Virus record (IMG/VR): IMGVR_UViG_3300047362_000988
Location: 1 to 41,548 of that record
DNA: 41,548 nt
Direction: 5' to 3' (one strand)
Source of the DNA: a virus
Shown here: positions 1 to 24,925 of the stretch, piece after piece
Numbering within the stretch: position 1 is the first letter of the stretch
How the letters are laid out: each line of letters begins with the position of its first letter
The notes under the pieces: generated by a model
Seen by the model: the letters and a program-made list of their open reading frames with translations, nothing else
Told to the model about the DNA's origin: nothing
The model's database searches: none
Position numbers and translations under genes: made by a program

Positions 1-336
1 TGATTCAGTTGCTCTGTATTTTGCAAATTTACCCTTTTTAATCTTTTTAACTAATTCAGCTTCACTGTCGTCCATGTGACCATATACGTCATTACTTGTT
101 GCTGCGTTTACTATTTCTCCAGCATCTCCAATAAAATAAGTTCCACCTGCGAATTCTTCTCCATCCATATCTAGATCCCATCCTCCAGCATCTAATGAAT
201 CTTTAGAAATTGTAAATTCTTTGCCATCTGCCTTTGAAAGAGCCGATGCTAATTTTTGTGCTATTTTAGCAGTATCTTTCTGCTTCATAACCTTTGCTTC
301 ATTGATAAAATTATCGAAGTTAGTATATAGTTTCAT
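1..336 (-). CDS. Partial small protein with capsid-targeting-like N-terminus (3' end outside window)
   Basis: An open frame starts with ATG at 336-334 and runs off the left edge after 112 codons without a stop. The N-terminus MKLYTNFDNFINEAKVM resembles the capsid-targeting peptide of T4 internal proteins (M-K-T-Y-Q-E-F-I-A-E-A). It carries an I-N-E tripeptide that fits the I/L-x-E rule of the T4 prohead protease gp21. After it comes a lysine/alanine-rich helix and then a glycine- and aspartate-rich segment (DAGGWDLDMDGEEFAGGTYF) that looks like a small beta domain. The start follows the 875-aa gene by 12 bases, so the two are probably co-transcribed. The product is not recognised. A head-packaged role is inferred only from the N-terminal peptide and the neighbours. 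Confidence 0.7.
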   Translation of the reverse strand, partial: MKLYTNFDNFINEAKVMKQKDTAKIAQKLASALSKADGKEFTISKDSLDAGGWDLDMDGEEFAGGTYFIGDAGEIVNAATSNDVYGHMDDSEAELVKKIKKGKFAKYRATES

Positions 337-348
337 TTTCTATAGTTT

Positions 349-2976
349 TTATTTATTGTATATATCCTTTATAAAAGATTCTAGAGTTAAGTTAACTACT
401 TGCTTATTCGTAATTTCTTTAAAAATTCTTTTTCCATATTTAGAAAGCTTGATTCCTTCTTCACTTACCATAAAAAATCTAGAATTTCTTCTCATCCATC
501 TTTTACTGTCAATAGATTTTTCTTTTAAAATATTATTGAATTCTTCTTCTGTTAATATTCCATCCGAAAGAGCTTCTATCATTGCGTTTCTAACCCTTGC
601 AGATCTTCCAGCTGTTTTTGCTGGATGCTTGTCTGTATACTTTCTTTTTATTTGAATTTTAGATTCAGAAACTACAGATTCACCAATACCTGCAATATCT
701 GAGTATTTAACCTCATGTTCTTCTCCGTCTTGATCGATCGCAAATACCACATCATCGTGCCACATTTCTGCATTGTCGTCATTATTAGAATCCGGGTTAT
801 AAACTATTAGTTCAGTACCATCTCCTAACTGAATAAACATGTCGTCTTTATTCTTAATTGCTTTTAATAACTTTTTCTTGTTATATTTTTCTTCTACTTT
901 TTCGCCTGCTTTTAAAGGAGCCATATCCTTATACATGCCATATAACCAATCCATAAAGTCAGGTGTATTTTGAAATACTTTCTTATAATCTTTCTTAAAC
1001 TTTTTTAAGAAATCATCCCAGTTTTTAGAATCGGATGCCATCAAATGAATATTTGACATTACACCTTCTGTTATAACTAATTTTACATCTTTGTTTTTTC
1101 CAGCTACGGCGTCGTCTAATTCTTTAGTTAAAGACTTTTTCTTTGCTGTTAAATCAATTAATTGTTGTCTTAATTTTGATTTTTCATCACTTCCTTCTTC
1201 AGCAGCAACATATACTTTAACTATATCTTTCATTTTATTAACCGTTTCTCCAAACTCCTTTGAAATCTTGTTAATAGAACGAGCTTCATTTAAGGTAGAT
1301 TCTTCTAGTTTTTTAGAAGCTAAATCTTTATCTTTTTTAGAAACGTTATCTAAATAAGAACCATCTCCCCAGAATTTAACAACTAGTTCAGTTTGAGTAG
1401 TTGAATACATTCCTGGTTTGTAAACTGCAATATCTCTTAGTTTTTTATTAGAAGAGATAGTTTTCTTCATAAAGTCTAGTGCTTGTTTCTCGCTTCTAAA
1501 CTTTTTCATAGCACTTACGCCGTCGCTATAAATAACTTCATAGTTTTCAGTAACTGATGATTCATCTAGTTTATCTAAACCCCAGTAGTTAGCCATGTCG
1601 TATTTTACTGGATAAATTGCTAAATCTCCAACATTACCTTCAGTCGCTTCTATGTTTTTAGCAAGATAGAAATCTCCAGCTCCTTCTTCGTAGCCCCAAT
1701 CAGCTGCGTCTGCTTTCATTTCTTTCTTAAACATTTTAGCAATTTTCTTAAAATTACCAATAGCAATTATTTTTACAACATTATCATTATAATCTATACC
1801 CTTATCTCCTACTTTTAAATCTCCTTTAGCTTCAGTAACTACTGACTCATAGCCATCATATTCATATACAACTTTCTTGTTTCCTAATGCTGATGCCATA
1901 GCAGAAACTTCAATCCAATTTACTTTTTCGCCATCAGGTCCTTCCCACTTACCTTTACCAAGGCATGTGTAAGTGATACCATTGATTTCAATAGTTCTAC
2001 CTGCTGGTGCCATCTTTATAGAGTTGCCGGCAGCTTTACCCTTGATTTCTTTTTCATTGTAGAAATCATCATATTCATCTTCATAATCGTCATACTCAGG
2101 CTCTTGATACCATGATTGGTTTGGATCTGATTCTGCTTCTTGAGTAAAATCATGTCTTTTCCAATTATACCTAGGATCTGTGACTAAAGCTGGAAAAAGA
2201 GTTTTGCGCTTTTTATCTTTAGTTTTTATTTTACCAAACGCTAAATCGATACCAAGTTGTCTTAATTCTTTAAATGAACCTTTCATTGTTTTAACGTCTT
2301 CTTCAGTATATCCGTTCATAGTTGCAACTAAGTCATAGTAATCCATACCGCCAAATTCTCCATAGCCTTCATAGTCTCTTTCTTTCCAAGAATTACCCTG
2401 GTTGTCGTACATGTAAACGTCTATTTTATTTTGAGGTTCTGAACCAATCTGATCTCCAGTATCTTGTGTCATCCATGAGAATTGACCTTCAGCTATCATT
2501 TTTTCATGTAACATTTGAGCACCTGTTGTTACAATATTTAAATAGCTTTCAGGAATTCCATTTGCAAAGTTATGAAGTTCTGGTTCGAAATCTGGCATAC
2601 CACATGCATATCTTGGATATGTTGCACCTTCAGTATTTACAAGAATTGACATTCCATAATACTCTCCTAATTCGCCCCTTTCAGTATTACAATATAGTAC
2701 GAATACTTGAGGAACTTGAACCTTAAAATTTGATTGCATAGGATAATCTGGATGACATCCTAATTCTTTAGTAGTATAGACTTCTAATGAATCTAATTCA
2801 GAAGAATATTTACTTAATTCTTTTAACGGGATAGAAGCTCTTTGATTAAATAGATCTCCCCAATAAGAAGGTTTTCTTAAAGAGTATTTTCCAGAAACTC
2901 TTTTATATACTTTATATAAATCAACGTTTTCATTCATTGAATTTACAAAGCTTTCAAATGTTTTTTTAGTGCTCAT
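349..2976 (-). CDS. Modular 875-aa polyprotein, probably virion- or head-associated
   Basis: This protein appears to be a string of small domains joined by short acidic linkers. I read an N-terminal F-E-S-F peptide (residues 7-10), a module to about 290, and an Asp/Tyr/Glu-rich linker (291-310). A small beta module follows (328-366), then modules at about 385-470, 479-555, 567-634 (coiled-coil-like), 639-690, 700-764 and 772-855. The linkers include ESVVTEA (377-383), ESSVTEN (472-478), STLNEA (560-565), LVITEG (633-638) and ESVVSES (766-772). The C-terminus has TLESFIK (864-870), like the targeting-type peptides on neighbouring proteins. The last folded module is basic (IKRKYTDKHPAK... then RSARVRNAMIEAL). 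There are no catalytic motifs I can name. The linkers contain L/I-x-E sequences compatible with prohead-protease cleavage, so processing in the head is a reasonable inference, not a demonstrated fact. Confidence 0.7.
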   Translation of the reverse strand: MSTKKTFESFVNSMNENVDLYKVYKRVSGKYSLRKPSYWGDLFNQRASIPLKELSKYSSELDSLEVYTTKELGCHPDYPMQSNFKVQVPQVFVLYCNTERGELGEYYGMSILVNTEGATYPRYACGMPDFEPELHNFANGIPESYLNIVTTGAQMLHEKMIAEGQFSWMTQDTGDQIGSEPQNKIDVYMYDNQGNSWKERDYEGYGEFGGMDYYDLVATMNGYTEEDVKTMKGSFKELRQLGIDLAFGKIKTKDKKRKTLFPALVTDPRYNWKRHDFTQEAESDPNQSWYQEPEYDDYEDEYDDFYNEKEIKGKAAGNSIKMAPAGRTIEINGITYTCLGKGKWEGPDGEKVNWIEVSAMASALGNKKVVYEYDGYESVVTEAKGDLKVGDKGIDYNDNVVKIIAIGNFKKIAKMFKKEMKADAADWGYEEGAGDFYLAKNIEATEGNVGDLAIYPVKYDMANYWGLDKLDESSVTENYEVIYSDGVSAMKKFRSEKQALDFMKKTISSNKKLRDIAVYKPGMYSTTQTELVVKFWGDGSYLDNVSKKDKDLASKKLEESTLNEARSINKISKEFGETVNKMKDIVKVYVAAEEGSDEKSKLRQQLIDLTAKKKSLTKELDDAVAGKNKDVKLVITEGVMSNIHLMASDSKNWDDFLKKFKKDYKKVFQNTPDFMDWLYGMYKDMAPLKAGEKVEEKYNKKKLLKAIKNKDDMFIQLGDGTELIVYNPDSNNDDNAEMWHDDVVFAIDQDGEEHEVKYSDIAGIGESVVSESKIQIKRKYTDKHPAKTAGRSARVRNAMIEALSDGILTEEEFNNILKEKSIDSKRWMRRNSRFFMVSEEGIKLSKYGKRIFKEITNKQVVNLTLESFIKDIYNK
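358..367 (-). promoter_or_regulatory. Candidate promoter element GGATATATAC
   Basis: A minus-strand copy inside the last codons of the 875-aa gene (Lys-Asp-Ile-Tyr). It ends 21 bases before the ATG of the left-edge gene, and one base differs from the main form. Confidence 0.4.
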
Positions 2977-2996
2977 TTTTATTTGTATTTGTTTAT

Positions 2997-4076
2997 TTAA
3001 ACTCGGTTAGGCTTTATTTTATATTTAAATTTACCTTGTGTAATAGAATATATTTGTAATTCGCTAGTTTTTCCAGGTAATTTCTTGTAATAGTGAAAAG
3101 CTACTATTTCATGATCTTTAGACTCTATAAAAAGGAATGGAGTAGGTATATCTCCTACTGCTGAAATTACATCGTCTTGTATTTCAGTAAATGTTCTAAC
3201 GGAAGGCTCAGTCTCTATTATACTTTTAATTTTTTCTGCAGTTTTAGAGTCACTTAGCTTTCCTAATTCTACGTCATTAAATTTAATTACTAATGCGCCG
3301 TTATCTTTATCTCCAGGACCTATTTTAAAATCTCTTTCACTAGAAGAAAGGGCCTGAATATCTGTCTTAGTTAAATTTTGAATATGCTTAAATCTTTTTC
3401 CACCTACAGTTCCCCATTCATTTATCCAACCTCCACCGGCAGCCATATCTTTACCATCTCCGTCCGGGTTGATTTCTTCAATATTATATTTTACTGCGTC
3501 ATATAATGCCGTTAACTTCGGTACATAAGTACTATTAATTCCCTGGTGTTTTGCACCTGTTCTCCAATTTTGTAACATGCCCTTTGACATTTGAGCTTCT
3601 TTTAACTCACATTTACCAAGGGGTGGTTTAATTGGTGACCACCTTTCATTATATAATTCTAAGTCAGTATCGGCCGCACCTCCACCTATTTTTATATTTT
3701 CTACAATATACGCTAGCATTATTTCTCCAGCACCAATTCCATTATCGTCTCTTCCAATATTAAACAATTCGTTTGCTTCGCTTTTATTTAACATTAAATA
3801 TTGAAAAACTACTCCGAATGTATCGTCATCCATTTTAGAAAGCCATAACCTACCATCAGGTTGTTGTTTAACATCCTGTGTTGAAGTAAACTTAACACCT
3901 TGCCATGGACACTTATTCTTTTTAAATGTTCTATTAATTGAATTAAATAAATTCTGTTGGGCAGATTTACTTCCGGTCGTTGCAACTCCAATATAGGATT
4001 CTATAATTAACGCTTCATTTTCAGCATTGGTTTTTGCAGCACTATGTAGTGCTCTTTCAAAATCGTACCTATCCAT
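2997..4076 (-). CDS. 359-aa protein with possible PD-(D/E)XK nuclease signature
   Basis: I do not recognise the family with certainty. The central part has G-I-G-A-G-E (residues 113-118), a GGG turn (131-133), D136/D138 and then E157-L158-K159. A glycine-glutamate motif, followed by an acidic residue on a strand and an E-x-K, is the arrangement of restriction-endonuclease-like (PD-(D/E)XK) active sites. It is followed by a conserved-looking KGMLQNWRTGAKHQG stretch. The C-terminal third (about 245-359) is a beta-rich domain. LIIES (24-26 reads I-x-S; I25-E26 is adjacent) near the N-terminus is only a weak match to head-processing sites. The ATG overlaps the end of the ligase-NMNAT gene (stop at 4069-4071), which implies translational coupling and a shared role in nucleic-acid processing. 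An alternative is a non-enzymatic virion protein. Confidence 0.6.
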   Translation of the reverse strand: MDRYDFERALHSAAKTNAENEALIIESYIGVATTGSKSAQQNLFNSINRTFKKNKCPWQGVKFTSTQDVKQQPDGRLWLSKMDDDTFGVVFQYLMLNKSEANELFNIGRDDNGIGAGEIMLAYIVENIKIGGGAADTDLELYNERWSPIKPPLGKCELKEAQMSKGMLQNWRTGAKHQGINSTYVPKLTALYDAVKYNIEEINPDGDGKDMAAGGGWINEWGTVGGKRFKHIQNLTKTDIQALSSSERDFKIGPGDKDNGALVIKFNDVELGKLSDSKTAEKIKSIIETEPSVRTFTEIQDDVISAVGDIPTPFLFIESKDHEIVAFHYYKKLPGKTSELQIYSITQGKFKYKIKPNRV

Positions 4077-5943
4077 TGTTTTCTAAAAATTGTTTAAATG
4101 TTAATAATGATTCAGCAACTTCATTTGATTCTGAAGTACCTACTGAATCTTCTAATTTTTTCTTAAGTTCGCCATACATTTTATGTAATGCTTTGGGTGT
4201 TGTTGACTTAAATAATCCTTCATCTCCGTCTAGCATTGCGTTTCTAACCTGAGTCGCTGAAATATTATCATCTGTTCTTGGAATTTCAAATAATCTAAAG
4301 TCGCTTCTAACTCCAAGATCTTCTCTATAAGAATCTTTATTTACTTGGAATCCGTAAGTTTTCATTCTATCACTTCCTGTTCCCCATAATACAGGTTCAT
4401 ATTTAGGTCTCATTGCATTGAACATAGTATCAATACCTCCTGTTGGAATTACAAAAATTTCTTTTAGGAATGGATATTGTTTTTGAACCGCCTTAAACAT
4501 CTTAAGTTGCGTTTTTTCATCATAAGGTCTTTTAAAAGCGTCTTCTTTTTTCTTATTCTTTGCTTTGACTAATAATACTACAACAGGATATCCATTTTCT
4601 TTGTGTATAGTTTCTAATACTTTAGCATGTCCAAGTGTAAATGGTTGGAATCTACCAACAAACATATTTACTAATTCTCCTCCTTGTTCAGGATGATCTA
4701 CCTTAAGCGCTTCATTTAAATTAACACTAGTCTTTACTTTGTTATGTAATATAAAATTGTTAAAGTCATATATTGAATTTTCGTCGGTGTTTTCAACGAA
4801 TATCTTTTTATCTATTTCTTCTACTATATTATTTAAATGCTCTATCATTTCTTTATTTAGAATATCGCTTTCTTTATTTCTCTTTTTTCTAAAAGATCCG
4901 AGCGTTATTTTAAATAATTCTGAAAGTATTTCGTTTTCCACTAAAGAAAGTGTGGTTTCGTTTTTAATGTATTTACTATTTAGTTTAAATACGCTATGGC
5001 TTGCAAAGTCGGCTGATTCAAAGTTAACTCCTATAAATTTAGTAGAATTTTCATTTACATATTTATTAAATATAACGGACATTAATTCAATGTACCTAAG
5101 ATCTGCTGTTTCTTCGTTTAGTTGAACAGAGTTCATGTCAAATGAAGAAAGATATTCGATTAGATCAGCTATAGTAATCTGATACATGTGACTAGATTCC
5201 TTAGAGTTGCTCTCGTTGTTTCTAGTAAAGTCTTCTAATTTAAAAGATTTTACTTTCTTTCCGTCTATAAATGAAATTATTAGACCATCAATCTCAACCT
5301 CAAAATCTTCATTCAATATTGGTGAAGTTTGATTTGGATTAAAAATCTTTATTATTTTCTGTGTAAATGAAGTTTTAAAATCCGTAGATCTATCATAGTC
5401 AAACGACTCTACAAATTCTTTATCTGACATAGATAAAAGATTTATTAATTCTGTTTTTTGATTTTGATTTAAAGTTCCATCAAATACTATGCTAGGTCCT
5501 TGAACTTCTAATTTTTTTGCCCATTTGTTTAAAACAGAAGGGTCATAAATAGTTTTTTTAACTTTACCTGACTCAGATAACGTTTGTATATGTGTTAATA
5601 TTAAATTATTCTTAGGAAGTTTAGTATATTTGTATTGTGATATTTCTAATTCAGGAAGATATTCAAATCCAAATTTCCAATCCGTTGGCATTTCTTCTTT
5701 AATTGAAGGATCTAAACTTTGAATATGTTTAACCCCTGTTTCGTATAGTCCTACGATAGTTCTATCTATCATATTCATACGAATATCTCCAGATTTAAAA
5801 TATTCAAACCTTTCTACGTTTCTTCTTACGTGAAAAGATGAACCTTGTATTTTTTCAGTAACTAAAATTCTATTTTTCAGAAGATCCTGAAATGCATTAA
5901 TGTTAGTTTCTTGAAATACTTGTCTTATTTTTTTAAGTGCCAT
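4069..5943 (-). CDS. Fusion of ligase-like nucleotidyltransferase and NMN adenylyltransferase-like domain
   Basis: Two catalytic domains are visible. The N-terminal half matches the covalent nucleotidyltransferase (RNA/DNA ligase) superfamily. It has motif I E-K-I-Q-G at 30-34 with K31 as the likely AMP-lysine, motif III FGFEYLPE at 91-98, motif IV EIDGLIIS at 217-224 and motif V-like KSFKLED at 232-238. A helical region (about 250-410) follows. The C-terminal part (about 425-600) is a HIGH-superfamily nucleotidyltransferase: GRFQPFTLGH at 430-439 contains the T-x-G-H signature, and ISATQVR at 561-567 is the ISSTxxR-type motif of NMN/nicotinate-nucleotide adenylyltransferases. The tail ends LLTFKQFLENNG, close to capsid-targeting peptides, and LNEAL at 409-413 lies between the domains. 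A fusion of a ligase with NAD synthesis chemistry suggests RNA or DNA end repair linked to NAD, but the substrates are unknown. Confidence 0.85.
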   Translation of the reverse strand: MALKKIRQVFQETNINAFQDLLKNRILVTEKIQGSSFHVRRNVERFEYFKSGDIRMNMIDRTIVGLYETGVKHIQSLDPSIKEEMPTDWKFGFEYLPELEISQYKYTKLPKNNLILTHIQTLSESGKVKKTIYDPSVLNKWAKKLEVQGPSIVFDGTLNQNQKTELINLLSMSDKEFVESFDYDRSTDFKTSFTQKIIKIFNPNQTSPILNEDFEVEIDGLIISFIDGKKVKSFKLEDFTRNNESNSKESSHMYQITIADLIEYLSSFDMNSVQLNEETADLRYIELMSVIFNKYVNENSTKFIGVNFESADFASHSVFKLNSKYIKNETTLSLVENEILSELFKITLGSFRKKRNKESDILNKEMIEHLNNIVEEIDKKIFVENTDENSIYDFNNFILHNKVKTSVNLNEALKVDHPEQGGELVNMFVGRFQPFTLGHAKVLETIHKENGYPVVVLLVKAKNKKKEDAFKRPYDEKTQLKMFKAVQKQYPFLKEIFVIPTGGIDTMFNAMRPKYEPVLWGTGSDRMKTYGFQVNKDSYREDLGVRSDFRLFEIPRTDDNISATQVRNAMLDGDEGLFKSTTPKALHKMYGELKKKLEDSVGTSESNEVAESLLTFKQFLENNG

Positions 5944-5953
5944 ATCTTATTAT

Positions 5954-7327
5954 TTATCTTCCGTACTTTATAACGCCCATTAATTGATTAATAGCGGCAA
6001 ATGTACCCGTTAATTTCATAGTTTTTCCTTTATATACGAAAACTATCCCTTCGGTTGGTATAATAGATTCTACTCCACCAATTCTATCTAATCTCTCTAA
6101 TTCTTTCATTACCTTTTCGATCTGAGCAACGCTTCCGCCTTTCTTAATTTTATCAGCCTCTGTTCTAATCTGATTATGCAATCTTTGCATTTCTTTGTCA
6201 GGATTAGCTGCTACAAAATTGGACGCATTTTTAAGAATTATAGACCCTAATTCTAAAAATAAATCTTCGAAAGGTCTAATGTTTTCTTTATATTTCTTTT
6301 TAACATCTTCTTTGTCGAATTTCTTAACCGCCGCTGCTTCATCTTTTCCTATTTCCTTTGCAAGACTTCTCATGTTAAGAGTTTTCTTATCTCCATAGGC
6401 CCATCTTAATAATAAACCTTCTTTATAGTCTTGTTGTAGATTAGGGAAATTTTCATCGATAGTTTCTCTCCACCACATTTCATGATACCTAGAAACCTCG
6501 TCACTATCTGTTAGATTATAACGATCTCTTAGTGCTTCAATTTGTTTTATAAATTTAGCATGATTTTTTTCAAAATCAATATCTTTTCCTAATTTTAATA
6601 TTTGAGGGGGAATTATTGTAAATGTTTTTTGAACATCAGCATCAACTTCTTTTAATGCGGAAACAAGCTCTCCTGCTATTTTTTGCTCTCCAATAATATT
6701 TCCATTTCCATCAGTTTCCTTAATATCGTGGAATTGTAAAACATCTCTTTCATAATAAATAACATTAGGATTCTTAGAGTAAATTAATTCCATATTAATA
6801 AAGTTCTTACCTTCATTAAATATAGACTGATCCTTCATCTTTGGAAGAGCTTCATTTAGGTCTTTAGCAGCAAACACATATGTTTCTCTTACTAAAGGAA
6901 CTTCATGCTCTTCAAACATTTTTATAATCCCGTCTAAATCGACTGGGCTAATTAATTGGCCTTTATTTCTAGAAAATAGAGTAACTCCGTTTCTTACGGT
7001 GGCAAATAAATTTTGGCCGTCTGTTTTTTCTGTTGCAACTTCTTCAAAGTTTAATTCTCCTTGAAGACCTGATTTTACTATTGTTTTAAAATCTGCAAAC
7101 GTTAAATCTTTCTCATCAAATGGATGTGACATATGCCCTGCAGCACCGCCTTCTAAGATTAAAGCTTCTTGTAGATTAGAAAACTTCTCAACGATAAATT
7201 CGTCAAATGTTAAAATTTTATTATCGTATCTTTCTGATAAGAAATGAGCAACATATTCTTCTCTAGTCATACCTTGCATATCTGCATGATGCTGAATAAA
7301 GTCTACGAAGTTGTTATCTAGTTTCAT
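5954..7327 (-). CDS. RNA/DNA ligase-superfamily nucleotidyltransferase with internal capsid-targeting-like peptide
   Basis: Motif I is E-K-T-D-G at 100-104, with K101 as the expected adenylated lysine. A motif Ia-like FSRNKGQ follows at 118-124, a motif III-like INMELIYS at 177-184, motif IV EGIVF at 426-430 and motif V KTMKLT at 435-440, near the end of the 457 residues. An unusually long insertion separates motifs III and IV, including EGLLLRWAYG at 303-312. Residues 1-60 are not part of the catalytic domain. They include TFDEFIVEKF (40-49) and closely spaced I-V-E, L-Q-E and I-L-E tripeptides, as expected of a cleaved head-targeting leader. The enzyme could join or cap nucleic-acid ends; polynucleotide specificity cannot be told from sequence. 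It sits 10 bases upstream of the second ligase-like gene. A perfect palindrome abuts its start codon. Confidence 0.8.
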   Translation of the reverse strand: MKLDNNFVDFIQHHADMQGMTREEYVAHFLSERYDNKILTFDEFIVEKFSNLQEALILEGGAAGHMSHPFDEKDLTFADFKTIVKSGLQGELNFEEVATEKTDGQNLFATVRNGVTLFSRNKGQLISPVDLDGIIKMFEEHEVPLVRETYVFAAKDLNEALPKMKDQSIFNEGKNFINMELIYSKNPNVIYYERDVLQFHDIKETDGNGNIIGEQKIAGELVSALKEVDADVQKTFTIIPPQILKLGKDIDFEKNHAKFIKQIEALRDRYNLTDSDEVSRYHEMWWRETIDENFPNLQQDYKEGLLLRWAYGDKKTLNMRSLAKEIGKDEAAAVKKFDKEDVKKKYKENIRPFEDLFLELGSIILKNASNFVAANPDKEMQRLHNQIRTEADKIKKGGSVAQIEKVMKELERLDRIGGVESIIPTEGIVFVYKGKTMKLTGTFAAINQLMGVIKYGR

Positions 7328-7344
7328 TTATATTACTAATATAA
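7328..7344. promoter_or_regulatory. 17-nt perfect palindrome abutting a start codon
   Basis: TTATATTA-C-TAATATAA has two 8-base arms around one base and ends at the base next to the ATG (7327-7325) of the ligase-like gene. Its position would let a dimeric repressor, or a weak RNA hairpin, block translation or transcription of that gene. It is AT-only apart from the centre, so chance is possible in this AT-rich DNA. Confidence 0.35.
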
Positions 7345-7391
7345 TTAAAAAAATCGACCTAGAAAAATTATAAGCCAATTTTTTTTTTAAT

Positions 7392-7595
7392 TTATAATCC
7401 TTTTACCCAGGATTTAAATAGGTCCCAGTTACGAGTTGCAAATACGCCAAATGCAAATCCAGCATAGATTTTATAGCCAAACGCCCATAGGGCAAGTCCA
7501 GCGATAAGGCCTAAAACACCTTCAACTCCGTTTGCAACAACCCAGGTCTTAACTGCATTAAATGCCTTTTTAATAAATTCAATTAATTTTTTCAT
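7392..7595 (-). CDS. Small membrane protein, two predicted helices
   Basis: The 67-residue product has an amphipathic basic N-terminus (MKKLIEFIKKAFNAVKTW). Two hydrophobic segments follow at about 25-40 and 42-54, separated by a short YK turn, then a basic tail. The size and topology fit small phage holins. But no endolysin is nearby, and the gene sits between a putative head polyprotein and a ligase gene. The N-terminus K-x-x-x-x-F-I also loosely resembles the targeting peptides of its neighbours, so a virion membrane peptide is an alternative. It starts 12 bases after the 525-aa gene and is followed by a 64-base gap containing a run of ten Ts on the plus strand. Confidence 0.6.
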   Translation of the reverse strand: MKKLIEFIKKAFNAVKTWVVANGVEGVLGLIAGLALWAFGYKIYAGFAFGVFATRNWDLFKSWVKGL

Positions 7596-7607
7596 GTTAT
7601 TGTATGT

Positions 7608-9185
7608 TTAGTTAGTAGCCACGGATTCGTTACATAGTGAAACTAATTCTTGTGCAATCTTTTTTGCTTTAGAACCTTTATGTCCATAAGATTCAACTGT
7701 ATCTAAAGCATCTTCCATTTCCATGCCATGTAATTCTCCCATGTCTCCTCCTCTTTCGTCTAAAAGATCTTGTAAGATATTTTCAGCTTCTGATTCGTTA
7801 ACTACAGATTCAAATGCTGGAACTAATCCAGTTTCTGCATAAATGTCTGCCATCATCCATTTTTTAGATTTTTCATCCCATAAATAAACGAATTCTGCAC
7901 CAGCTTCGTAATTTGCGTTTTTAATATAATCATTAATGCTCTTAATATTACCTGTCATTAAATTAGAATCTCCGCCGTAGAAATTAATTTTCTTAATGTC
8001 TTTATCTAGACCTGAATTGTCTCCATTCTTAAGAACGAAATCTACATTCTTACCGCTTTTAAATGTTGATTTAATAATAGGTAACATATTTTCTGGGTAA
8101 GAATCGTAGTGAGTATAAACTGAAGTAATATTTCCCTTTCTGTCTATTTTACCAAATTGGCCTCTAGTTCCTTCATTAAGAACGATTGTAGCTGACTCTT
8201 CAATATAGTCTGCTAAACCTGCATCATCCCATCCTAATTCTCCATCTGCTAATACCGCTTCTAAATCCTCTCTTTTACCCTGCATAGTAATTTCAGGGTG
8301 ACCAGTTGGTCCTGATTTTACCATATCGATAATTTTAACGCTATTCTTCTTTAAGAATTTTAAGAAATCTTTATCTTTAGGATTCATAGCGTCCATTGTA
8401 ACGGTTGCTTCAAAAATAAGGTTAGACTCCTTTAATGATATTTCTTCTTCTGATAATTGGTATTCAACGCTCTCATTAGCTGCATTAAAACCTACTAATA
8501 ATTTTTCAGCGGTTGAACCTTCACCAATAGATTCTAAATACATTGCTGTTCCTTCAGCAATTCCAGGACCTGACCATCCCGCTGCATTTGAAATTCTAGA
8601 ATAATATTCATCTAGAATTTTCATAATGTTTTTTGCACCAACGATAATTGCATGTTTTCCTAAAGATTCAGGAGAAACTGAAATACTGTTTAATCTACCT
8701 TTAATAATTTTTTCAGTAGCTGATCTCGCTGAATGAAAGTTAGCATCAGTTAGAGCTTCATTATATAAATATTTAATAGCTCCTAAATAAGTTACTTTAT
8801 CTGCTGTTAGACTTCCTAACTCTGCAAAAATCTTTTTAAATTGAGTTACTACCTTTTTAGCATCTCTCTTATATCTAATATCTAAGGCTTCTGAAACTTG
8901 CTCTTCCGACTCTTCCGTTTCTTCAACTTCTTTTTCAACTTCAACCTCAATTTCTGCAAGTTCTTCTTCAGAAACGTCTCCAAATATTTTTGAGATGATT
9001 GTTTCTTTTTGATCTTCTTCTAAACCTTCAAAAGAAGTTAGTCCTAGTTCATCTAATATAGTGGCTATTTTACCAACAGCCTCTTGTCTTTTTAAATTAT
9101 TTTCTTCTCTAAGTTTATTAGCGTTCTCTTGTTTTCTGATCTCAGTAAAAGACTTAAAAGAAGAAATTTTATTGATTTCTGCCAT
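7608..9185 (-). CDS. Modular 525-aa polyprotein, probably head-associated
   Basis: The N-terminus has SSFKSFTEIRKQE (8-20), similar to the peptides on neighbouring proteins. A charged helical region and a Glu-rich stretch (72-98) follow. Further modules lie at about 99-235 (helical), 260-330 and 338-450, with a small C-terminal helical module at about 466-518. The third module starts TRGQFGKIDRKGNITSVYTH and continues with DSYP and a GD-S-L motif. I recognise this layout (TRG...H-x-D-x-YP...GD.S.L) from a phage domain of unknown function. Linkers include EQVSEALD (95-102), IVLNEGT (334-340) and FESVVNESEAE (458-468). The last shares ESVVxE with the 875-aa protein. L-N-E and related tripeptides could be prohead-protease sites. 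A candidate promoter element lies 32 bases upstream, overlapping the end of uvsW. No enzymatic activity can be assigned. Confidence 0.7.
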   Translation of the reverse strand: MAEINKISSFKSFTEIRKQENANKLREENNLKRQEAVGKIATILDELGLTSFEGLEEDQKETIISKIFGDVSEEELAEIEVEVEKEVEETEESEEQVSEALDIRYKRDAKKVVTQFKKIFAELGSLTADKVTYLGAIKYLYNEALTDANFHSARSATEKIIKGRLNSISVSPESLGKHAIIVGAKNIMKILDEYYSRISNAAGWSGPGIAEGTAMYLESIGEGSTAEKLLVGFNAANESVEYQLSEEEISLKESNLIFEATVTMDAMNPKDKDFLKFLKKNSVKIIDMVKSGPTGHPEITMQGKREDLEAVLADGELGWDDAGLADYIEESATIVLNEGTRGQFGKIDRKGNITSVYTHYDSYPENMLPIIKSTFKSGKNVDFVLKNGDNSGLDKDIKKINFYGGDSNLMTGNIKSINDYIKNANYEAGAEFVYLWDEKSKKWMMADIYAETGLVPAFESVVNESEAENILQDLLDERGGDMGELHGMEMEDALDTVESYGHKGSKAKKIAQELVSLCNESVATN

Positions 9186-14477: not shown

Positions 14478-14846
14478 TTAAAATTGTTTTCCGATAGCAG
14501 CGCCTAATCCAGCACCAACTAATCTTGAAGTTAATAAATCGTAAAATATACCTTTTTGAATTCCTAACACTTTAGCAACCGTCTTACCTATTGTTTTACC
14601 TAAAGCAAAACCAGTAAGTCCACCAAAAATAGAACCCAAGAAACCTTCATTTGTAATTTCTTCATTAAATCTTTCAAAATCAAATGTTCCGTCTTCATTG
14701 GCGTATTGTTTAGTGAACTCTTCTAAAGCCGCATCCACCTTTTCTTCTAACTCATCAGTCCATTCAGATTGTAAAGATTCCTGTAATATTTGGATCTCAT
14801 CTTGTGTTACGTTTTTATCGTCTAAATATTCAAAAAATGTTTTCAT
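14478..14846 (-). CDS. Glycine-zipper membrane protein with capsid-targeting-like N-terminus
   Basis: The N-terminus MKTFFEYLDD closely resembles the T4 internal-protein targeting peptide (M-K-T-Y-Q-E-F). An acidic helical region with an I-L-Q-E site (20-23) follows. The C-terminal half is hydrophobic and glycine-rich: GFLGSIFGGLTGFALGKTIG (68-87) and VGAGLGAAIGKQF (110-122), two likely membrane-spanning glycine-zipper helices. Such a combination suggests a head-packaged protein that inserts into a membrane during DNA entry, or alternatively a small lysis or envelope protein. The ATG is 22 bases after an AGATATATAA element. The resolvase gene follows immediately. Confidence 0.65.
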   Translation of the reverse strand: MKTFFEYLDDKNVTQDEIQILQESLQSEWTDELEEKVDAALEEFTKQYANEDGTFDFERFNEEITNEGFLGSIFGGLTGFALGKTIGKTVAKVLGIQKGIFYDLLTSRLVGAGLGAAIGKQF

Positions 14847-21592: not shown

Positions 21593-24500
21593 TTAGTTAT
21601 ATTTCTGTTCTTGTTCCTGATTATGACAAAGCACACCATCAGCTATATAAACATCATCTGCTTCAACATCTATACTATAAGTATTAGATGTCTTTTTTAC
21701 ATATTCATTACTGAAAACCTTAGTCCATTTTTCATTTACATATATAAATTCTCCTAAAGATATTTTACCAGCCTGCTTAAATTGAATTATATTATTGTGT
21801 TTTACCAAAACAGGGTGTTCACTCGTTATTTTAGTTAGACCTTTATTAATATCCATATATGATATATGTGTTCCTTTTACTATGTTTACAACTGTAACTG
21901 TTGAGGCTTCTTTAATTAGTTTATTTACCTTAAAATTTCTCCATTCTCCACTTTCTCTTAATCCACCTATTTTATATGAAGATAAGCTGTCTCCTATTTG
22001 TAAGTTTTCAACTTTTTTAAATTTACCGTTTGACATAGTTATTAATGTTCCTTCTACGTGACATGGTCCCCAGTTAAATTGAATAGAGGTAGTACCGGTC
22101 TGTGACATCTGATAGTTAATATTTGTAAGACTAAGGGTAACATCGCGATTTATTCCGTTATTTGTATTTGATGTCAAATTAACATTTACCGTTTCATTAC
22201 TATTATCTACACTGCCTATACTACCCGAAACTCCTGTAGGTAGATTAGTTAAACTAAAATTAGATGTACTCAAACCAGGCCCATCCCACTCAAATTCTGC
22301 AACGACGGTACCGTTACCGACGCCAAATTCTGGATTAATATCTGTGAAGTTAAACACATAGCCGGAGCCGAATCCGGAGCCTCCACTACAATCTGATAAA
22401 GTAGGAGCCATAGAATTAGAATTAATTTCTCTATATTCTGAAGAAAGTGAATCAGCGATAACTATGTTTGGTTGCTCCCCTATTATAGGACCGTCTTTTA
22501 CTAGGACTAGAGGGTGTTTTCCCGTGTCAGCTAGGGAGGTTGTACCAGACGAATGAGATGCATCTCCTCTTACGTATATTTGATCTGTAATAAAGTTAAA
22601 ATTTATAGCAGAAAAATTAGAAAAAGGTAAACTAACTGCATTTCCTGCAAGTGTACCATGGGCGTCTCTAGCATAGAATGTTAATGAATTTGTTCCTGAT
22701 GTATCACATGCTGCACTACTTGAATTTGCACCACTAGCTAGGTGCCATGTCCTATTGTAAGGAATATAATTATCTTTAATCGTAGCGCCTTTAAATTCGT
22801 TGTCTGAATTATTCCAATATTTTCTATAAGTCAATTGATAACCGGCAGGTATGGATATATTATAACTACCTGTAAAGGCATCTGTATATGTAACGCTTCT
22901 CCACCATCCAGTTGTAGGAATTACAATCTGATTAGAAGAATTAACTGACCATATATGAGAATTTGACTCATAATCTGTAAAATCAGGATCGTTAGTGTTT
23001 GAATTTTGACTATTAGCGGTAGGATTTCCTTGAAAATCACTAGACACATGCATTTCAACAAAAACAGGATTATTACTATTTTGTATGGTTGCTAGAGAAA
23101 CGGGTTCATTATTATATGTTGTTTGAAAAATATCAACTGAATTTCCGTCAACATCCCATAGACCTTCTCCATACCACATCCAACTCTGTTGGGGTTCGAA
23201 CACATGTTTTAAACCTGTGAATCCTGTGCCATTTTCATAATATCTTGCTATTCCGCCAGGTACTGCCGAATGTTCTCTAAAAAACCATCCGTCATCAACT
23301 TCAATTCCATTTTCATAAACTCTAATACCTGTCGAAGATGAAGGATTGCTAGTTCCATCGGTTGTAAAAGAAGCGTCACTTAGCCAAAAGGTATCTATTG
23401 AAGTACCTCCGCTTATATCAGCAGTCCACTGTCGCGTTACAGGATTAAGAGAAGCTGCATATCTTGCTGAAATATCAAAACCATCTTGATCAGGGGAATC
23501 GACATATTCATGGTACCCTGCTGAAAAGTCTGTTGTTTCAGCTGTAGAATCTAAATTACCCCATTCATATCCATAACTGCCTAAAAAAATAATACTAACA
23601 TGTTCTCCAAATACGATATGCTTTTCATCTCCGGAATTATTTTGAATATTGCCCGGGTATCTTCCGCTTTGAGACCCTGATTGATGAGACTGTGTAATAA
23701 CACCTGTGCTAGTATCGGTTGAAAGAGAAGTTTCAGATCCTCCATATATGCTTTTTCCGGGATTAGACGTAGATGACACTCCCAATGTATAATGAAATCC
23801 ATTTAAATTAGGGGTATCATATGATATAATTCCGCCATCTCCCCATTTTCTACCATTACATAAATACCATGCGCCAAACATTCCATCTGGCCTACCTGCT
23901 CCAAAGTTCGTTCTAATGTTAGTCGTTCCACCTGTACTTAAATCTGTAACAGTTGCATTATCGGTATAAAAATTAGAAGAATTAAAAGAAGTAGAAGGTA
24001 TTTTAACAATAGATCCTATAGGTAACACTGAAAATAAACTTGAAACATTTTCCCAAGTAACAGTTCCTATATTATCATTTGATTTTAATACATTATTTAA
24101 ATTAGCTTGGTGATTAAATTTTAAGCCTCCTACTACAAATTCTACTTTTTTACCAGGTTGAGTTGCATCTACGTATAAAGGATAATTTATTACAGAGTTT
24201 TCACCTAAAGTATTAATATTTCCAAAATTAGAAATAAAATTAAAATTAATATTCCTTTGAAAGTCTATTTCATATCTATAACCGGAACTGGCGTCGTTGG
24301 GCTTTATTTCGAAAACAGAATTAGCCACTGTTCCAAGAATTGGATCAGACACATTATTTATTCCAAAATTAAAATAGTGAGAACTGTCGTCACTATCTAA
24401 TGAAAAAGATGATGCTGAAGAGTACCATCCCTGTGATGGAATAGAAGCCGCTCCATTTGTTAAAACATTAAAGGCTCCATTGCCAGCAAGGTTTATAGGG

Positions 24501-24925
24501 GTTGTTGCAGTTGTTCCATACCATGGACTTAGATAATCTCCATTGGCGTCTAAGTTAGAATTGGTACCGATTACGGGAATAGCCATACCTGCAACTCCGA
24601 TTTGAACAGATGGCCAAATTACCTTTTGATAATAATTATTTCCATTTTCATCAACGCCGTTAAGTATTGTGCTTTTCCAGCTTCCAACAGCCGAAGGACC
24701 TACAATTCCTTGAAAACCAAATGGACCTTGATTTCCTTCAGTTCCCGTTTCACCCTTATCCCCTTCAACTCCATTAGGACCTTCTAATCCAGATGGACCC
24801 AATGGACCTCCATTTCTAAGAAGGTTAAAATTAAAATTTATTTTATCAATTTTATCCTTTGACCACCATTCATTGCTGTTAGGATCTAGATCACTCTTAA
24901 AAAGTTCTTTGATTCTTATGTTCAT
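21593..24925 (-). CDS. Collagen-like tail fibre with C-terminal intein-like Hint domain (1110 aa)
   Basis: The N-terminal KINFNFNLL motif (28-36) is followed by 13 G-x-y triplets (40-78). A tail-collar segment with GAWYLCNGRKWGDGG and DTPNLNGFHY comes next, then a long adhesin-like region. Residues 955-1102 (nt 22063-21620) form a Hint domain. Cys955 starts CHVEGTLITMSNGKFKKVE, with the block-A pattern ending in LQIGDSL. TSEHPV (1034-1039) is block B with the conserved Thr and His. The domain ends in ADDVYIADGVLCHN, the block F/G sequence with His1101-Asn1102. Only eight residues follow, beginning with Gln, so full protein splicing is not expected. N-terminal cleavage or a cross-link at Cys955 is. 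The gene ends 59 bases before its paralogue. Confidence 0.85.
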   Translation of the reverse strand: MNIRIKELFKSDLDPNSNEWWSKDKIDKINFNFNLLRNGGPLGPSGLEGPNGVEGDKGETGTEGNQGPFGFQGIVGPSAVGSWKSTILNGVDENGNNYYQKVIWPSVQIGVAGMAIPVIGTNSNLDANGDYLSPWYGTTATTPINLAGNGAFNVLTNGAASIPSQGWYSSASSFSLDSDDSSHYFNFGINNVSDPILGTVANSVFEIKPNDASSGYRYEIDFQRNINFNFISNFGNINTLGENSVINYPLYVDATQPGKKVEFVVGGLKFNHQANLNNVLKSNDNIGTVTWENVSSLFSVLPIGSIVKIPSTSFNSSNFYTDNATVTDLSTGGTTNIRTNFGAGRPDGMFGAWYLCNGRKWGDGGIISYDTPNLNGFHYTLGVSSTSNPGKSIYGGSETSLSTDTSTGVITQSHQSGSQSGRYPGNIQNNSGDEKHIVFGEHVSIIFLGSYGYEWGNLDSTAETTDFSAGYHEYVDSPDQDGFDISARYAASLNPVTRQWTADISGGTSIDTFWLSDASFTTDGTSNPSSSTGIRVYENGIEVDDGWFFREHSAVPGGIARYYENGTGFTGLKHVFEPQQSWMWYGEGLWDVDGNSVDIFQTTYNNEPVSLATIQNSNNPVFVEMHVSSDFQGNPTANSQNSNTNDPDFTDYESNSHIWSVNSSNQIVIPTTGWWRSVTYTDAFTGSYNISIPAGYQLTYRKYWNNSDNEFKGATIKDNYIPYNRTWHLASGANSSSAACDTSGTNSLTFYARDAHGTLAGNAVSLPFSNFSAINFNFITDQIYVRGDASHSSGTTSLADTGKHPLVLVKDGPIIGEQPNIVIADSLSSEYREINSNSMAPTLSDCSGGSGFGSGYVFNFTDINPEFGVGNGTVVAEFEWDGPGLSTSNFSLTNLPTGVSGSIGSVDNSNETVNVNLTSNTNNGINRDVTLSLTNINYQMSQTGTTSIQFNWGPCHVEGTLITMSNGKFKKVENLQIGDSLSSYKIGGLRESGEWRNFKVNKLIKEASTVTVVNIVKGTHISYMDINKGLTKITSEHPVLVKHNNIIQFKQAGKISLGEFIYVNEKWTKVFSNEYVKKTSNTYSIDVEADDVYIADGVLCHNQEQEQKYN

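Follow-up and report, generated by a model that had tools for sequence, protein, structure and literature searches.

The internal proteins IPI, IPII and IPIII of phage T4 carry a capsid-targeting sequence (CTS), a short N-terminal peptide with aromatic residues at positions 4 and 7 and [IL]xE at positions 8–10, and gp21 cuts it (PMC9026906). In the IPIII propeptide, residues 4 and 7 direct targeting and residues 8 and 10 direct processing, and in T4 an Asp at position 10 blocks processing but not targeting (PMC9026906). For T4-like phages, entry of diverse cargo by way of the CTS has been suggested (PMC9026906). Early-acting injected proteins have precedents in IPI and Alt of T4 (PMC9026906) and in the Dar proteins of P1 (PMC9024508). 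P1 DarB is a very large packaged protein with an N-terminal head-targeting signal (PMC9024508), and in the phiKZ-like phage SPN3US the prohead protease gp245 cuts several head and ejected proteins, some of whose propeptides are cut multiply (PMC10052503). Polyvalent proteins (Iyer et al. 2017, PMC5512222) are phage proteins built as mosaics of several domains, for which packaging and injection have been predicted; they have been likened to viral polyproteins, with release ascribed to embedded peptidase domains (PMC5512222).

The locus described here shares with the T4 system a peptide with the same positions, a protease of the gp21 family and the gene order portal, core protein, gp21, gp22, gp23. 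It differs in that T4 has few tagged proteins whereas dozens of families, including enzymes, are tagged here; there are also internal and C-terminal tags, a protease fused to the scaffold, and cutting sites at module starts. P1 uses another signal, a head without a separate scaffold system and few cargo proteins. The SPN3US protease has AxE specificity and mostly long propeptides, no shared short tag has been reported for it, and most head proteins are left uncut. Compared with polyvalent proteins, the mosaic proteins of our locus have several modules in varying orders and would likewise be packaged, but Pfam and PHROGs searches found no peptidase domain in them, and their sites match the prohead protease instead. 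In searches of the open-access literature, neither this tag family nor cargo polyproteins cut by a prohead protease turned up.

Layout of the cassette

The window is the whole stretch of DNA that was analysed, 41,548 bases of a virus record; almost all of its genes lie on the minus strand. The left 9.2 kb are the cassette of the original prediction, the middle holds gp32-like, primase and UvsW-like genes, and structural genes lie on the right side, including a weak gp25-like match. A collagen-like tail protein (21593–24925, minus strand) has a Hint/intein-like region at its end (CHVEGTLITMSNGKFKKVENLQIGDSL ... VYIADGVLCHN). This fragment contains no head genes, and we infer a prohead protease from relatives. 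The protease family searched for in the window, PF04586 (Peptidase_S78), had no match; it is the wrong family, and the window is a fragment. The peptides quoted in the original prediction, in the cassette and in a 122-aa protein beyond it, are all present where it placed them. The genes and tags are as follows (a slash marks the proposed cutting position):

1–336, minus strand: left-edge protein, begins MKLYTNFDNFINEA, cut off by the left contig end
298–336, minus strand: N-terminal tag MKLYTNFDNFINE/AK of the left-edge protein, P = 0.01 alone
349–2976, minus strand: 875-aa tagged mosaic protein, proposed cleavable polyprotein
367–387, minus strand: near-C-terminal tag TLESFIK of the 875-aa protein; the G003 homologue has TLESFINE/A and then continues
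2941–2976, minus strand: N-terminal tag MSTKKTFESFVN of the 875-aa protein (KTFESFVN), with the targeting aromatics and no E at the cutting position
2997–4076, minus strand: 359-aa protein within the cassette, no tag found
4069–5943, minus strand: 624-aa fusion of an RNA-ligase-like domain and an NMNAT/PPAT-like nucleotidyltransferase (ligase-NMNAT)
4072–4107, minus strand: C-terminal tag LLTFKQFLENNG of ligase-NMNAT (peptide TFKQFLE), targeting aromatics present, cutting site absent
5954–7327, minus strand: 457-aa nucleotidyltransferase/ligase-like enzyme (ligase), TEKTDGQN motif, tagged
7151–7162, minus strand: second ligase site LILE/GGAAGHMSHP, start of the conserved enzyme, in 38/38 distinct relatives
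7187–7219, minus strand: predicted capsid-targeting tag KILTFDEFIVE/K of the ligase, 18.4 bits, E47 invariant in 29 sequences
7608–9185, minus strand: 525-aa mosaic protein, proposed cleavable polyprotein
9141–9164, minus strand: divergent N-terminal tag SSFKSFTE (SSFKSFTEI) of the 525-aa protein
14817–14846, minus strand: tag MKTFFEYLDD of the 122-aa protein (gene 14478–14846)

Neither the 67-aa gene product at 7392–7595 nor the 359-aa protein has a convincing tag. When the window tags were scored alone with a profile from relatives, KTFESFVN (23.8 bits) and TFDEFIVE (18.4 bits) were matched by none of 5,000 shuffles. The tags of 1–336 and 7608–9185 and the C-terminal tag of 4069 were weak when taken alone (P 0.01–0.02), and MKTFFEYLDD could not be fitted by the profile because it starts too near Met1. 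These cases were decided by orthologues. The full-length orthologue of the left-edge protein (G003 102498–103832) retains MKLYTNFDNFINEAKVM, orthologues of the 525-aa protein start MQKLKSFEQFATEA or MEKLKSFEQFAKVK, and KTFESFVN is common to the 875-aa and 1072-aa homologues. MKTFFEYLDD has a D at T4 position 10, and orthologues of the 122-aa protein start MKTFNKYLVEE. Behind this CTS-like start, the 122-aa protein (minus strand) has a glycine-zipper hydrophobic C-terminal half (GFLGSIFGGLTGFALGKTIGK...) and is kept in about 30 relatives; it could be a packaged membrane-active protein.

The tag is enriched in relatives and has T4 spacing

Relatives were collected via the ligase gene (80 loci kept of 239 confirmed stretches, on contigs of up to 212 kb), and seven relative contigs were read whole. 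The N-terminal tag in these relatives has the consensus M-K-[HK]-[IV]-K-L-[FY]-E-x-F-[ILV]-N-E. The original prediction was to fall if no motif were enriched over shuffled proteins, and this did not happen. On the seven contigs, [FY]xx[FY][ILV]xE lies within the first 25 residues of 3–8 proteins per contig, against 0.2–0.6 in shuffles. With a 14-column profile, 36 of 394 body families were tagged, compared with 0–1 in 20 shuffles at the same cut-off, and 33 of the 36 survived leave-one-out scoring. Both aromatics are conserved in all of these families (36/36 each), [ILV] in 34/36 and E in 30/36. At the DNA level, the pattern MKH[IVM][KQ]LFE[QE]F[IVM]NE was found in at least 120 IMG/VR stretches, and the same codons permuted were found in none.

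The conserved columns match T4 CTS spacing exactly, with the aromatics at 4 and 7 and the cutting residues at 8 and 10. As a positive control, the same regular expression applied to T4 returned the known internal proteins IPII and IPIII plus gp61.1 and nothing else. A small-residue bias at P1' of the N-terminal tags was considered as a further argument and dropped, because it is unclear: P1' is often K (8/36), with A in 7/36, and is not confined to A, G or S. The claim of a cassette of tagged proteins held in that the tags are there, but the system is wider, with tags scattered across the whole genome.

A tblastn search of named phages with the bare tag gave no match. No isolates carrying tags were found: PTm1, PAU and MaF61, which among isolates are closest in gp23, had no excess, nor did Mel-JY01 with the tag regular expression. 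The distant huge phage LR756500 (462 kb) had 12 matches in the 200 kb read, and its gp23 shares 52% identity with the G003 protein. A search for bacterial genomes carrying the ligase gene, which could point to a host, found none; gp23 relatives in phages of Bacteroidota hosts hint at Bacteroidota as the host phylum. The tag peptide MKHIKLFEQFINE can serve as a string for screening isolates.

Prohead genes in the relatives

The original prediction was also to fall without a gp21-type prohead protease gene, but a family of this type (S77) was detected in 14/15 large relatives and, among large contigs selected solely for the tag, in 18/21. The core protein encoded between portal and gp21, the position of gp67/gp68 in T4, has a tag at its start in 14/14 distinct cases. 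gp23 (PF07068) was found in 4/7 large contigs. The gp21 protease continues into an acidic, gp22-like scaffold region in the same protein. This region contains repeats of [FY]xx[YFH][ILV]xE, which resembles the tag, and might be viewed as a series of cutting sites. PTm1 also has an annotated fusion of the gp21-gp22 type. Taken together, the enrichment, the identical spacing, the tagged core protein, gp21 and the T4 control agree with the T4-like capsid-targeting reading put forward originally, and the tag as a predicted capsid-targeting sequence is well supported at the sequence level.

Several other features of these loci were recorded. Fusions of the gp21-gp22-like type lie at G003 132108–134168, G007 147160–149622 and G011 111307–113367. 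A second, shorter gp21-family match (132-aa frame) lies far from the main one in G017, G018 and G019 (234–236 kb contigs). Behind gp23 lies a gene for a charged protein of coiled-coil-like character (G003 135884–137269, G011 114992–116560, G007 151308–152288) that is tagged in G011 (KLYEQFVNE) and tag-like in G003 and G007; perhaps it is a second core protein.

In T4 gp61.1 (AF158101 18966–19130, L359), the CTS and 28 further residues align with the junction of propeptide and mature N-arm in gp23 (score 82, shuffled maximum 52), and the protein ends in a Lys-rich tail. Cassette proteins of the marine phages contain a GMGxVxLP..GSGD..KKKK stretch that resembles their own gp23 N-arm (G003 134324–135763 vs 104155–106026; also L026, L033, L049 and others). 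The T4 protein (phrog_1823) has the same layout of CTS, copy of the mature gp23 N-arm and Lys-rich tail, but it is 54 aa long and the one such protein seen in T4. Internal proteins with a mimic of the capsid N-arm may be a general type.

Mosaic proteins with sites between modules

Multidomain members of the tagged set look like cleavable polyproteins, a feature absent from the original prediction. Modules are common to the 525-aa and 875-aa proteins and recur, in other arrangements, in proteins of relatives. Their candidate inter-module sites are:

664–684, minus strand: GESVVSE/SKIQIKRKYTD, 875-aa protein
1066–1086, minus strand: VKLVITE/GVMSNIH, 875-aa protein, module common to other proteins
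1285–1305, minus strand: EESTLNE/ARSINKISKEFGE, 875-aa protein, module found behind other [ILV]xE sites in relatives
1546–1566, minus strand: DESSVTE/NYEV, 875-aa protein
1831–1851, minus strand: YESVVTE/AKGD, 875-aa protein
7794–7814, minus strand: FESVVNE/SEAE, 525-aa protein
8172–8192, minus strand: ATIVLNE/GTRGQFGKID, 525-aa protein
8409–8429, minus strand: ESNLIFE/ATVTMDAMNPKD, 525-aa protein
8889–8909, minus strand: SEEQVSE/ALDIRYKRDAKK, 525-aa protein

The SKIQIKRKYTD-type module is found elsewhere directly behind an N-terminal tag (MKKFEEFIGE/GKITLKRRYTE). For hand-picked modules, [ILVMF]xE lay just upstream of the module start in 18/18 distinct contexts of TRGQFGKI, 13/13 of GNAFG and 8/8 of KIQIKRRYT, scored within 14 residues upstream against a background of 29% and with a list chosen post hoc. 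The totals for hand-picked modules include the regular expressions M9, M18 and M20, which hit module interiors and have no site. The automatic junction tests are less biased. They placed [ILV]xE within −3 to +7 of 1142/1774 junctions, where 406 were expected (maximum 480), while [ILV]xD and [ILV]xK were depleted and [AGSTNQ]xE was nearly flat. The reversed Ex[ILV] was enriched as well, since E is the first residue of the linker. After similar contexts were reduced, the count was 610/919 against 239 at random (maximum 278 of 500), with contexts still partly non-independent and most of them supplied by one large linked group. In an unfiltered test on all proteins, tail fibres and acidic repeats drowned the signal, which was weak.

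The linker E[ST]x[ILV]xE[AGSKN] occurs 0.3–2.4 times per 1000 aa in cassette proteins and 0–0.12 times elsewhere; in the window there are 5 in the 2,660 aa of the cassette set and 0 in 10,683. Its degenerate form, E-S-V-[VI]-[NT]-E/A, corresponds to the final stretch of the tag (FESFINEA vs xESVVNEA). Both aromatics are kept in 1/113 distinct internal linkers, and A, S or G stands at P1' in 96/113, a count for which the search pattern itself allowed A, G, S, K and N. The cutting Glu is kept in 2/35 C-terminal tags. In these linker and C-terminal counts, the columns used for selection are not evidence. It thus seems that natural variation has uncoupled targeting and cutting in both directions. 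The linker DNA has a mean identity of 0.68 over 21 nt and consists mostly of GAA-TCA/TCT ... GAA codons, but codons vary.

Tagged enzymes

Orthologues of the ligase at 5954–7327 have an N-terminal tag in 38/38 distinct sequences, followed by a variable spacer and then [ILMV]xE directly before GGAAGHM in all 38. In the window, the ligase tag is displaced by an extra upstream N-terminal extension that itself reads NNFVDFIQ. LR756500 has a tagged ligase as well (MKFLKSYEEFLNE), in which the ligase starts MKFLKSYEEFLNENLILEGGSYGH. The LILE/GG site was considered as proof of cutting, but this argument was weakened by the untagged Mel-JY01 homologue, which has IIAE/GG; the conservation may be structural. 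TEKTDGQN is invariant among the orthologues. The top Foldseek match, to T4 Rnl1, had E 0.13, and folding of the ligase with a search of solved structures gave no firm match.

Ligase-NMNAT has the C-terminal tag in 32/32 distinct orthologues and E at the cutting position in 0/32. Its C-terminal half is NMNAT/PPAT-like (Pfam CTP_transf_like, 4.5e-9). The best Foldseek match of its N-terminal half is T4 Rnl2 (5e-7), with a TM-score of 0.2–0.4 and a model of pLDDT 70. Among the other tagged proteins are a GNAT-like acetyltransferase, a PGA_cap-like protein and a nucleotidyltransferase of the poly(A)/CCA type, as well as AAA-like and ATP-grasp-like proteins, both of whose identities fall below Pfam cut-offs. 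The predicted cargo functions are RNA ligase, NMNAT, GNAT and CCA-adding-like.

NAD restoration of the NARP2 type is made up of NAMPT plus NMNAT. NAMPT (PF04095) was absent from the ten relatives searched, which leaves a full NARP2-like pathway of NAD salvage unsupported. The suggestion of injected repair or NAD enzymes is tentative: ligase-NMNAT is tagged, but its NAMPT partner was not found in these relatives. An NAD or repair role for the tagged enzymes is speculative, and an anti-defence role for RNA ligase or NMNAT is a guess.

Discussion

These results suggest that T4-like phages of a large uncultured marine group fill their heads with many tagged proteins, some of them cut, and deliver them with the DNA. 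We put the probability of head-cargo targeting as a whole at roughly 0.75. A tag with T4 CTS spacing would bind the prohead scaffold, the fused gp21 protease-gp22, and so enclose the cargo. At prohead maturation, the gp21-type protease would cut after [ILV]xE, trimming N-terminal tags, and mosaic proteins would be cut between modules at degenerate tags that have the cutting site alone. C-terminal tags retain the targeting half alone and would stay on the protein. The freed proteins and domains would stay inside the head until they are ejected together with the DNA. Scaffold binding, cutting, packaging and ejection are steps that we infer from T4. As to purpose, we guess that the cargo acts early after entry into a new host, to take it over or to counter its defences, for instance by RNA repair. 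Against this view, large folded proteins would have to traverse the portal and tail, or be retained.

What we propose as new concerns the 525- and 875-aa proteins, mosaics whose swappable modules are linked through degenerate tags; these proteins would be packaged as polyproteins and cut by the prohead protease. We rate slightly above an even chance the idea that this protease dices such modular polyproteins into effector domains in the capsid, with a full tag meaning entry and trimming, a tag without E entry with the tag kept, and a tag without aromatics cutting alone. It is rather unlikely that tags serve targeting only, with whole proteins entering and being trimmed and the [ILV]xE between modules being uncut acidic linkers or recombination joints. 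The fairly similar linker DNA is what would be expected if short repeats aid domain shuffling, and the enrichment of Ex[ILV] at junctions also fits, but [ILV]xE is enriched where [ILV]xD and [ILV]xK fall below expectation and [AGSTNQ]xE hardly moves, P1' is mostly a small residue, and linker codons still vary.

The enzymes could instead be ordinary replication, repair or NAD enzymes that act in the producing cell alone. Their genes lie near replication genes, NAMPT is absent and, to our knowledge, T4 Rnl1 and Rnl2 are not internal proteins. This we consider improbable, since the ligase tag is conserved throughout while the spacer behind it diverges freely, and every ligase-NMNAT orthologue keeps its tag. 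A general role of the tag in docking proteins to the tail, baseplate, replisome or membrane rather than to the head core might be argued from the cassette adjoining UvsW-like helicase, primase and gp32-like genes and not head genes; it is nevertheless very improbable given the tagged core protein between portal and gp21, the conserved cutting-site residues and the same signature on T4 internal proteins. Phe-rich N-termini produced by simple inheritance or chance, through paralogy or biased composition, have a close to negligible probability: some multidomain families are paralogous mosaics and the clustering is approximate, but the 36 body families are unrelated at E 1e-4, and neither N-terminus shuffles nor the permuted DNA pattern reproduce the signal.

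If head-cargo targeting is correct, the split between targeting and cutting by natural variation parallels the split made by mutation in T4 genetics. The grammar of the tag would then be a predictive rule for which cargo is cut, and natural C-terminal and cleavable linkers would be on offer for loading phage heads with proteins. The tag would make head cargo readable from sequence alone, and it nominates dozens of candidate injected proteins in abundant uncultured phages.
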